Assembly: GCA_002215645.1 (NCBI GenBank) | Contig: NGFI01000013.1 | Coordinates: 62,001-126,000, forward strand | DNA length: 64,000 nt | Origin: Gemmatimonadetes bacterium 2013_60CM_65_52 | GTDB taxonomy: Bacteria > Gemmatimonadota > Gemmatimonadetes > Gemmatimonadales > Gemmatimonadaceae | Direction of reading: 5' to 3' | In this document: positions 19,168-21,602 of the stretch, in pieces | How positions within the stretch are numbered: position 1 is the stretch's first letter | Layout: every line of letters begins with the position of its first letter | Notes under the pieces: generated by a model | What the model was told of the DNA's origin: nothing | What the model saw: only the letters and a program-made list of their open reading frames with translations | The model's database searches: none | Program-made: the position numbers and the translations under genes

Positions 19168-20337
19168 ATGCCGCTGCCCCCTTCGCATATCTGGATGGCC
19201 GACTTTTCGAAATGGCGTACCTTCAGAGCAATGCCCGGTGCACGGGTGCCTTGTCGTTGGACCATCATGTTTCACCCAGCACCGAGTTTCGCGGCAATGC
19301 GACAGGTGCTTCCGAATACAGAGGCTGGCTCTCACTTGGCTACTCGAAAGAAGCGGTCGAAGAAACTCGACCTATCACTCGCGCTACCGATGTTCACCGC
19401 GGCAGACCTTCACAACATCGGTGAGGCTGCCGAAGACGCGAACACGCTGATGGCAATGTTTTACTTCCGCAAAATCCTCGACCATCAAGCCCTCAGTCTC
19501 TGCGTTCAGCATTTCCGCCCCCTATCCCGCTTCTTCGAGGCCACTGAGCGGGAACTGAAATACATCTTCGCTCGTGACAGACATCTGAGAGGCTACGTTG
19601 ACGCACACCAACTCGTAAGTCACACGCAGCGGTCTGCCGCATCTCGCTATGCGGAAAGGCATCTCAACGCCTTCGCAGAGGGGTTGGGCTCCCTTCTGAT
19701 GCACAACCATCCGGCGTTTCCACGCATGCGTCTTGAACGTTCGCGCTTGCCGGTTGACTGGCTATTCATCCACCCTACTACCGCTCTCCGGTTGTCACGT
19801 CCAACCGTTGCCATCGTCGGAAGTCGCCAATCGTCCAAGCGACAACTCGACGCGGCGCGGGACGTGGCAGAAGGTGTTGGCGCACTCGGGGGAACGGTAG
19901 TCACGGGCTTGGCAACAGGCGCTGACGGAGCAGCCCATGAAGCCGCACGCTCCACAGAAGCGAGCATCGTCGCGGTGCTGGGGAGCGGCGTCGCCAAACC
20001 CTACCCAAGTGAGCATGCGAAGTGGGTGAAGGAATTGCTTGAAGGCCGCGGTACTGTTCTCAGCGAGGTACCGCCTGACTACGCTCCAAATCAAGATGGC
20101 TTCGTCCTTCGCAACCGTATTGTCGCAGCTTTAGCCGACGTGGTTGTTGCGGTATCTGGCAAGTATGCCAGCGGCACAGCACATACCATTCGCTTCGCTT
20201 GTGACGCGAGCGTGCCAGTCGTTAGCGTTGATCCTGATCCCGCGAGTGGCATATCGGCCTTAGTGCGCGAATGCGGTGGATACGTGAGCAGCCCGTCCGA
20301 TTTCGTGAGGCAGTTAGAGCGCGGTGAGGATGCGTGA
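19168..20337 (+). CDS. DprA/Smf-like SLOG-domain protein (island)
   Basis: A 389-residue frame whose C-terminal half (about residues 205-370) is a DprA-type Rossmann (SLOG) domain: TVAIVGSRQSS, GGTVVTGLATGADGAAH, VAVLGSGVAKPYPSEH, VLSEVPP and FVLRNRIVAALADVVVAVSG. These cover the nucleotide-pocket motifs of DprA. Unlike transformation DprA there is no C-terminal winged helix or N-terminal SAM domain; instead about 200 residues of unrecognised helical sequence precede it. The start is uncertain: 19195 or a codon near 19390 is possible. It is translationally coupled to the HAD-PRTase gene. A nucleotide-derived ligand or ssDNA-sensing role in defence is inferred. Confidence 0.85.
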   Translation: MPLPPSHIWMADFSKWRTFRAMPGARVPCRWTIMFHPAPSFAAMRQVLPNTEAGSHLATRKKRSKKLDLSLALPMFTAADLHNIGEAAEDANTLMAMFYFRKILDHQALSLCVQHFRPLSRFFEATERELKYIFARDRHLRGYVDAHQLVSHTQRSAASRYAERHLNAFAEGLGSLLMHNHPAFPRMRLERSRLPVDWLFIHPTTALRLSRPTVAIVGSRQSSKRQLDAARDVAEGVGALGGTVVTGLATGADGAAHEAARSTEASIVAVLGSGVAKPYPSEHAKWVKELLEGRGTVLSEVPPDYAPNQDGFVLRNRIVAALADVVVAVSGKYASGTAHTIRFACDASVPVVSVDPDPASGISALVRECGGYVSSPSDFVRQLERGEDA

Positions 20338-21602
20338 CGCTGAAGGCCGTCATTTTCAACGTGTCCGGGGTCTTGCTGAAAGACAGCAATGCCGCAGATC
20401 AAACGACTGCGATGGCGGCTGCGCGCAAGGATGCCATTCGAATAGAGTTGCGTCTGTTATTCGACTTTCTGAGAAGCCGAAGCGTCCGCCCCGTCATCGT
20501 CACCAATCACAACTGGACGTTCACTGACCGGCAAACGGGAGTCGTCCAGCCAATTGAGGAGGGGCTAACTCAACTGTTCGGCGCACACACCCTTTACGTC
20601 GCTTCACGGGGCGACATGCCGTTCAAGCCGCTCAAGGACGCGCTGGATCACGTACTTGCCCACGAGAACCTTCAGGTTGAAGAAGCCATCGTTGTGGGCA
20701 AATCGAAGGAAGATTTCAGAGCAGCGATCAATAGTGGTCTACTCTTTCTAAATGCAACATGGGATAAGCAAGAAGTACCCTACGGTTTCGCATTTGACAC
20801 GCCGCTGAACGTCCAGCGATTCATCGATCTGTTCGCGCTTAAGGAGCACCCGTGGTTTTACCGCATTGATGATCCCGTGCGGTATATGAGTCTTGCCCCG
20901 TTCAGCACGATGAAGGAGGCATACGCAGAATACTCTGGAGCGGCGCGCAACGCAGCCAAGAGAGGAAGCCCAGAGAGACACTTCTTTTTGAACACTCTCG
21001 TCGCTTCTCTCTATTTCAGTGGGATAAGCAAGGATATCGACTACATCGCTGCTGTTCCCGGCCACGCGCAGGGCTACGGGAATCGACACATGGATGACGT
21101 GCTGACGCTCGCTGGCGAAGTGTTCAGGGCGCGGTATCTCCCCGACTTGGTCGTTAGGCATACGACTGCCGCGAGCAACCGCGCAACCCGAGTCAGTGGA
21201 GAGGCGCCGTTACCGGAAACGCAGCTAAACACAATACATCTCACCAGTCTCCCGCTCTTCAAGGCACCCAAACGGTATAAGAACGCAGTCAAGCTGAAGG
21301 GGAAGACCGTTCTCGTGTTCGATGACTTCACGACACGAGGCTACTCATTCGAGGCCGTGCGTGCCTATCTCGCGGCGTCGGGTGCAAATGCGATCTTGGT
21401 GTCATGGCTGAAGACGATCAACAGCGATTATACGGTGCTGACCATGCGTGAGAGCATTAGACCTTTCGAGCCGAATACAGGCTTCACGTCTGCTTCATAC
21501 ACATGCCAGTCGCTCCCCTACCACCAGCACATTGTTGATACGGGGGCAGTGCCGGAACTACTCGAAGCGTTCCGCCGCTTCCGAGAATACTCACGTACGT
21601 AG
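20334..21602 (+). CDS. HAD-like / phosphoribosyltransferase fusion protein (island)
   Basis: A 422-residue protein starting with GTG inside the stop of the DprA-like gene (GTGA). Residues 1-180 are HAD-like: VIFNVSGVLL (motif I position, but Asp nucleophiles replaced by Asn and Ser), VIVTN (motif II), FKPLKD, and EAIVVGKSKEDF. Residues about 230-415 form a type I phosphoribosyltransferase with the PRPP loop VLVFDDFTTRGYS near residue 325. The PRTase part looks competent for PRPP binding while the HAD part looks catalytically dead, hence perhaps a ligand-binding domain. Pairing with DprA parallels a known phage-satellite defence system called DprA-PPRT (recalled from the literature, not verified). 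Confidence 0.85.
   Translation: MTLKAVIFNVSGVLLKDSNAADQTTAMAAARKDAIRIELRLLFDFLRSRSVRPVIVTNHNWTFTDRQTGVVQPIEEGLTQLFGAHTLYVASRGDMPFKPLKDALDHVLAHENLQVEEAIVVGKSKEDFRAAINSGLLFLNATWDKQEVPYGFAFDTPLNVQRFIDLFALKEHPWFYRIDDPVRYMSLAPFSTMKEAYAEYSGAARNAAKRGSPERHFFLNTLVASLYFSGISKDIDYIAAVPGHAQGYGNRHMDDVLTLAGEVFRARYLPDLVVRHTTAASNRATRVSGEAPLPETQLNTIHLTSLPLFKAPKRYKNAVKLKGKTVLVFDDFTTRGYSFEAVRAYLAASGANAILVSWLKTINSDYTVLTMRESIRPFEPNTGFTSASYTCQSLPYHQHIVDTGAVPELLEAFRRFREYSRT

Follow-up and report, generated by a model that had tools for sequence, protein, structure and literature searches.

Two coupled genes in the window, as the 64,000-nucleotide stretch of DNA analysed here is called, very probably form a ShosTA-type abortive-infection module that is carried as island cargo. 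Here, a PRPP-using ShosT toxin would be held by a SLOG partner, which in relatives of the pair would be docked on the sliding clamp and in the window copy would act by another contact. ShosTA has already been published and the pair itself is unsurprising; more worth following are the atypical antitoxin and the clamp-like tail that most of its relatives carry. Feature coordinates are collected in Table 1.

Table 1. Features of the tRNA-Asn island and its cargo, in window coordinates
Feature	Position	Strand	Evidence
Intact tRNA-Asn(GTT), integration target	17851..17923	+	ARAGORN; Rfam RF00005, 68 bits
Left direct repeat (attL-like), tRNA-Asn 3' half	17882..17925	+	44 nt, 95% identical to 23448-23491
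tRNA-Pro(CGG)-like 3' half ending CCA, remnant just inside left end	18010..18059	+	Sequence
Cargo: 262-aa protein, N-terminal hydrophobic segment, then helical/coiled (by eye)	18187..18975	+	ORF
Tandem motif GTTCGGGATA-AGTGCGGGATA	19116..19136	+	Possible recombinase arm sites
Antitoxin gene, DprA/SLOG family (atypical ShosA)	19168..20337	+	PF02481, PADLOC ShosA, trees, AF2, codon pattern
Toxin gene ShosT: HAD-like N-terminal domain without nucleophile Asp, then PRTase with PRPP loop	20334..21602	+	PADLOC, PDB sequence match, AF2 and fold
Stand-alone SIR2 protein, second probable defence gene	21831..23222	+	PF13289 9e-17; ThsA-like 2e-17 (PADLOC)
Second copy of tandem motif, ~110 bp inside right end	23318..23338	+	Repeat search
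Right direct repeat (attR-like), tRNA-Asn 3' half without 5' half	23448..23491	+	Repeat match

A pair consisting of DprA and a phosphoribosyltransferase, located in a P2-like phage hotspot, protects against T7 and lambda (Rousset 2022, PMC9122126). In a 2025 review (PMC12593503), ShosT is described, after Pu et al. 2025 (Nat Commun 16:3141), as a phosphoribosyltransferase and pyrophosphatase that disturbs the purine pool and causes DNA duplications, filamentation and death. The same review states that ShosA binds DNA and probably recruits unnamed factors for homologous recombination, and that T7 Gp0.7 is a trigger of ShosTA. The first-pass annotation had likened the window genes to a DprA-PPRT defence pair of phage satellites; the pair is indeed of this kind, and is assigned to ShosA/ShosT by PADLOC, but the reported location is the P2-like phage hotspot (PMC9122126) and not satellites.

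The downstream gene encodes an ordinary member of the ShosT family. The protein matched the PADLOC ShosT profile at 1.6e-77, and comparison of its sequence with the PDB gave ShosT at 3e-71, ShosT entries being the only relatives at a threshold of 1e-5. The AlphaFold (AF2) model has a pLDDT of 92, and its best fold match is the solved structure of ShosT with PRPP-Mg (8zvc; TM 0.89, 34% identity). Identity to 35 homologues ranges from 32 to 42%, and in the ShosT tree the window protein, on an end branch of 0.71, is sister to the main group, with two Streptomyces sequences as outgroup. The PRPP loop, VLVFDDFTTRGYS, which the first-pass annotation had described as retained, is present, and its residues D330, D331, T334 and G336 do not vary in any homologue (36 sequences). 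The toxin thus combines a HAD-like domain with a PRTase domain of the ShosT family. At the position of the HAD motif-I catalytic Asp (ShosT residue 9), all 34 homologues compared carry Ser or Gly and the window protein carries Asn; the two Streptomyces relatives retain the Asp. Because this residue is replaced, classical HAD phosphatase activity is, judged from sequence, improbable for the HAD-like domain of the main ShosT clade and, with the nucleophile absent, the pyrophosphatase step reported for ShosT may not be a HAD reaction.

The antitoxin gene is adjacent to, and upstream of, the toxin gene. The assignment of the two genes as DprA-like and HAD-PRTase, made from the letters alone, was confirmed by Pfam (PF02481 at 5.4e-41 for the first; HAD and PRTase for the second). 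The two ORFs overlap by 4 bp with both frames open and, as had been noted, the GTG start of ShosT (20334-20336) lies over the TGA stop of the antitoxin (20335-20337); a purine-rich, ribosome-site-like GGTGAGG is found upstream of this GTG. The coupling had been taken to imply synthesis of the two proteins in a fixed ratio. Close spacing is conserved among homologous pairs (median 9 nt; ≤30 nt in 60/63), but the stop-start overlap is not, occurring in only five of the 63, so a fixed ratio is something that we can only infer.

The position previously given as the start of the antitoxin gene, 19168, is the first ATG of its frame and is probably too far upstream. Counted in 90-base blocks from the start of the ORF, GC at the second codon position is 0.63, then 0.57, and 0.33-0.37 for the three blocks that follow; it stays at 0.57-0.63 until ~19347 and is coding-like thereafter. 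Furthermore, residues 1-61 have a pLDDT of <50 in the AF2 model, and homology to relatives starts only at approximately residue 67. Given this codon pattern, the poorly modelled N terminus and the onset of homology, a true start at ~19297-19390 is more likely.

In terms of its sequence, the antitoxin is atypical: its branch is long and lies between the ShosA clade and chromosomal DprA. Its best profile was PADLOC ShosA (1.1e-46), with 157 bits versus 140 for Pfam DprA, and the match to the PsyrA profile was weaker (74 bits). The score against the DprA equivalog TIGR00732, 123 bits, is under the cut-off of 191 bits. The SLOG fold stops at approximately residue 385, well short of the extent of the chromosomal DprA of the same genome, and a winged helix is absent; thus, neither the winged-helix C terminus nor the equivalog score of a chromosomal DprA was found. 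The core SLOG residues are kept (G218, R220, G247, A249, G251, D253, H257, E300, F312, R315, N316, G336, T337 and T340), so that the earlier description of a complete SLOG pocket lacking a DNA-binding winged helix holds. Despite this, the window protein is not a standard ShosA, given that it differs at four positions that are invariant in 34 other ShosAs (S246T, Y301V, Q319V and E330S) and at a fifth, W331G, that is Trp in 33 of these and Cys in one. Identity to ShosAs is only 21-29%. No close relatives were found in viral contigs, the 297 other sampled genomes of the phylum yielded none at E 1e-30, and plasmid matches reached only ~34%.

To assess the C terminus of ShosA, homologues were gathered via ShosT and reduced to 39 clusters at 70% identity, the window protein being excluded. 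The motif Qxx[LMF] was present within the last 14 residues in 35 of the 39 clusters, compared with a mean of 6.3 (maximum 14) for shuffled tails. A strict form, Q[LMF][SDTEKN][LMF][FLIM], was observed at the end of 13/39 clusters; none of 1698 internal windows from these proteins contained it, and shuffled tails gave a mean of 0.1 (maximum 2). Examples of these tails are QLSLF, QLSLL, QLSFL, QLDLL and QMSLF, together with the six-residue QLSMDL and QISLGL. The bacterial beta-clamp binding motif has two known forms, QL[SD]LF and QLxLxL. The ShosA tails match this motif and, from so short a sequence, we infer binding to the beta sliding clamp. The window antitoxin ends SPSDFVRQLERGEDA, has no Qxx[LMF] tail, and so falls outside the clamp-tailed subgroup of ShosAs. 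The idea that the missing tail is encoded in another frame near the antitoxin stop was rejected, because no reading frame there supplies the motif. A literature search, the primary ShosTA mechanism study lying outside its coverage, returned nothing relevant that links ShosTA or DprA to the sliding clamp or to a clamp-binding motif. In two Streptomyces plasmids (L145 and L147), a ShosT-like gene is followed by a DprA gene and then by a PRTase/ComF-type gene, and the DprA ends QQLALAGL.

How ShosA restrains ShosT and how infection is sensed are only partly worked out, and the clamp-like tail names DnaN as a candidate partner. A tentative proposal, to which we assign slightly less than even confidence, is that ShosA is tethered to the replication fork by its tail, such that ShosTA would sense attack on the replisome, and that the window pair represents a variant that does without the clamp, its ShosT being restrained by a SLOG protein of the DprA type. 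Lacking the tail, the window pair is a natural counter-example that would be useful to separate restraint from sensing.

The pair is located on a 5.6-kb island between two direct repeats of the tRNA-Asn 3' half. A 21-mer core of the repeat occurs at these two sites only in the window, with 0 occurrences expected by chance, and the DNA between the repeats is AT-richer (GC of 0.51-0.60, versus ~0.60-0.67 outside, or around 64%). Four same-strand genes are contained therein, encoding an unknown protein, the ShosTA pair and a SIR2 protein. The first of these, of 262 aa, had no match in Pfam, PADLOC, NCBIfam or PHROG and no relatives on plasmids. The motifs GAG, TTNWD and HGS are present in the SIR2 protein, which has a 36% identical full-length relative on a Corynebacterium glutamicum plasmid. 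The element therefore has the direct tRNA 3'-end repeats of a tRNA-integrated island but not an integrase of its own: none was found among the ORFs between the repeats, and the genome's four PF00589 hits all fall on other contigs. An Rfam search gave no RNA features above threshold other than tRNA.

A tandem 10-11-bp motif, GT(T/G)CGGGA(T/C)A, was found genome-wide only at 19116 and 23318; the two copies are possibly recombinase arm sites or, alternatively, the seam of a composite island. Inside the left end, the 3' half of a tRNA-Pro(CGG) gene is found, as if an ancestor of the island had occupied another tRNA gene; a stretch similar to this remnant is located elsewhere in the genome (C10:456185) and is probably the intact gene. 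A clean empty site with both flanks was not found. The UxuA gene of the left flank adjoins tRNA-Asn in two congeners, and the right flank is unmatched in either. In one of these, UxuA is followed by tRNA-Asn with no island after it; in the other (G008), the linkage is the same and the contig ends there. On another contig of G008, a 10-kb stretch (L134, 1338-11457) lies between two tRNA-Asn 3' copies and contains McrC-like, DUF3800, radical SAM and G2P replication-protein-like genes; no integrase was found among the ORFs tested in this stretch. The best explanation of the window locus is that the ShosTA pair arrived with the island, alongside an independent SIR2 gene, which implies that defence genes move on an element at a tRNA gene that is only 5.6 kb long and lacks an integrase.

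By analogy with a characterised relative of 34% identity, free ShosT would use PRPP in a phosphoribosyltransferase reaction that harms the purine nucleotide pool and, in consequence, DNA replication. The coupled SLOG/DprA-like protein encoded upstream would restrain it; infection would break this restraint, and the infected cell would stop growing or die. In most members of the family, the C-terminal tail of the antitoxin probably docks on the beta sliding clamp and would thereby tie the restraint to the replication fork. Given that the window antitoxin has no such tail and has a DprA-like SLOG end, it would have to neutralise ShosT another way, probably through direct binding or through its own DNA or nucleotide binding; its placement outside the ShosA clade in the tree likewise suggests that it may not neutralise as ShosA does. 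Protection against phage has been reported for relatives of the pair and is predicted for the window copy; toxicity via the purine pool and release on infection are likewise drawn by analogy with the characterised family.

Within this explanation, a sub-question is whether the toxin has changed partners, a chromosomal-type, DprA-like SLOG protein having taken the place of a lost ShosA. The nearest solved structure to the antitoxin, by both sequence and fold, is Rhodopseudomonas palustris DprA (3maj), which aligns with it through the DprA-type C terminus to residue 382, versus only 347 for ShosA. In a SLOG tree of 30 DprA genes of the same phylum and 34 ShosAs, the antitoxin is in neither group and is outside the ShosA clade at 99/90, on a branch of 2.24 versus a median of 0.35. 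A second tree, to which the Streptomyces partners were added, gave the same picture with a longer branch; here, a Streptomyces ShosA is nearer to the main ShosAs than is the window antitoxin, although its ShosT is the more distant in the ShosT tree. Such reversed orders fit either a change of partner or very fast divergence, and branches of 2.2-3.2 prevent a firm choice, since placement on them is unsafe and a fast-diverged true ShosA would look alike. That ShosA gives the best profile match, and that the motif SGTAHT is ShosA-like, also speak against a swap, which we consider a real possibility standing a little below an even chance. A Chloroflexota pair (L023), in which an ordinary ShosT that groups with Nostoc accompanies a long-outlier ShosA without a clamp-like tail, is a possible second case. 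The loss of this tail and of five otherwise (near-)invariant residues in the window antitoxin, together with its poorly supported N terminus, might instead indicate a degenerating antitoxin in a module that is becoming a relic. Among the genomes sampled in the phylum, the island SIR2 protein has a single close relative, from another genus of the family (L131, 6003-7298, in G166; 57% identical in the best part), and this is itself broken into several frames. However, the antitoxin ORF is free of stops and frameshifts, its core SLOG residues are kept, ShosT is fully intact, and a toxin beside a dead antitoxin would be lost; decay of the module is accordingly judged unlikely.

Two further readings concern the role of the pair and the extent of the system. 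If the island were one functional system, its four same-strand genes inside a single tRNA-Asn repeat pair would be explained; but at 73 other ShosT loci no relative of the 262-aa membrane-type protein or of the SIR2 protein lies nearby, a 229-bp gap precedes the SIR2 gene, and the SIR2 relative in C. glutamicum is plasmid-borne. A conserved system of all these components was rejected on the lack of co-occurrence at the 73 loci, and a single function for the whole island is quite improbable. That the pair is instead a competence or recombination accessory, consisting of DprA and a nucleotide-metabolism enzyme with no toxin-antitoxin function, would fit the DprA ancestry and the one ComF-like neighbour observed, in a Streptomyces plasmid. 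This is very doubtful indeed, given the missing winged helix, the lack of a competence operon in those plasmid and phage neighbourhoods that were annotated and examined, and the published toxin-antitoxin and defence role of the ShosTA family. The first-pass annotation had suggested a defence re-use of competence parts; the defence role is supported, but re-use is not specifically so, because the DprA likeness reflects shared SLOG ancestry and the PRTase belongs to its own ShosT family and not to ComF. It had also named two findings that would count against it, a frameshift or dead pocket in the DprA frame of homologues and a location mainly in competence loci. Neither was encountered, since frames are intact and homologues occur on phage, plasmid and viral contigs and on scattered chromosomal contigs. 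Of the other genomes sampled, none of 178 in the family and none of 345 in the phylum carries ShosT; a search of genome contigs with the window ShosT alone gave no close relatives, and an alignment query did retrieve homologues. In three rhizobial plasmids (L007, 7153-8686; L008, 7139-8672; L009, 7153-8686), ShosTA is followed on the opposite strand by a second DprA-like gene that overlaps a small unknown gene; the two may form a further toxin-antitoxin pair of the SLOG kind. An island-borne ShosTA-type module remains the preferred reading.

Comparison with known systems places the pair as follows. Cis-mobilisable (CIME-like) elements are integrase-less islands at tRNA genes, with att-like tRNA 3'-end repeats around their cargo; the window island resembles them by analogy only, a conjugation origin or helper element not having been identified. 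Like Thoeris ThsA and stand-alone SIR2 effectors, the island SIR2 protein has a SIR2 domain with NADase motifs, but at 463 aa it stands alone: a SLOG sensor domain was not detected and ThsB is absent. A DprA-homologue antitoxin is shared with PsyrTA/RqlHI and SLOG defence antitoxins; unlike PsyrTA/RqlHI, the partner in the window is a ShosT-family PRTase. The antitoxin has the SLOG core and DprA-type domain end of chromosomal DprA/Smf (3maj; C9:375392 in the same genome), from which it differs in having no winged helix, in its sub-threshold TIGR00732 score and in being coupled to a toxin. The references for ShosTA are those of E. coli APEC O1 and P2-like phages (Kimelman 2012; Rousset 2022; Pu 2025; PDB 8zva-8zvd). 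The window antitoxin is divergent from these at the five positions given above and has no recognisable HhH glycine motif (LxGVGF) or QLSLL-type tail, and the 4-bp stop-start overlap is a further difference. In common with the E. coli/P2 systems, the window pair has a SLOG/DprA gene followed by a HAD-PRTase gene, and its ShosT is 33-34% identical over the full length, with the same fold and the PRPP loop.
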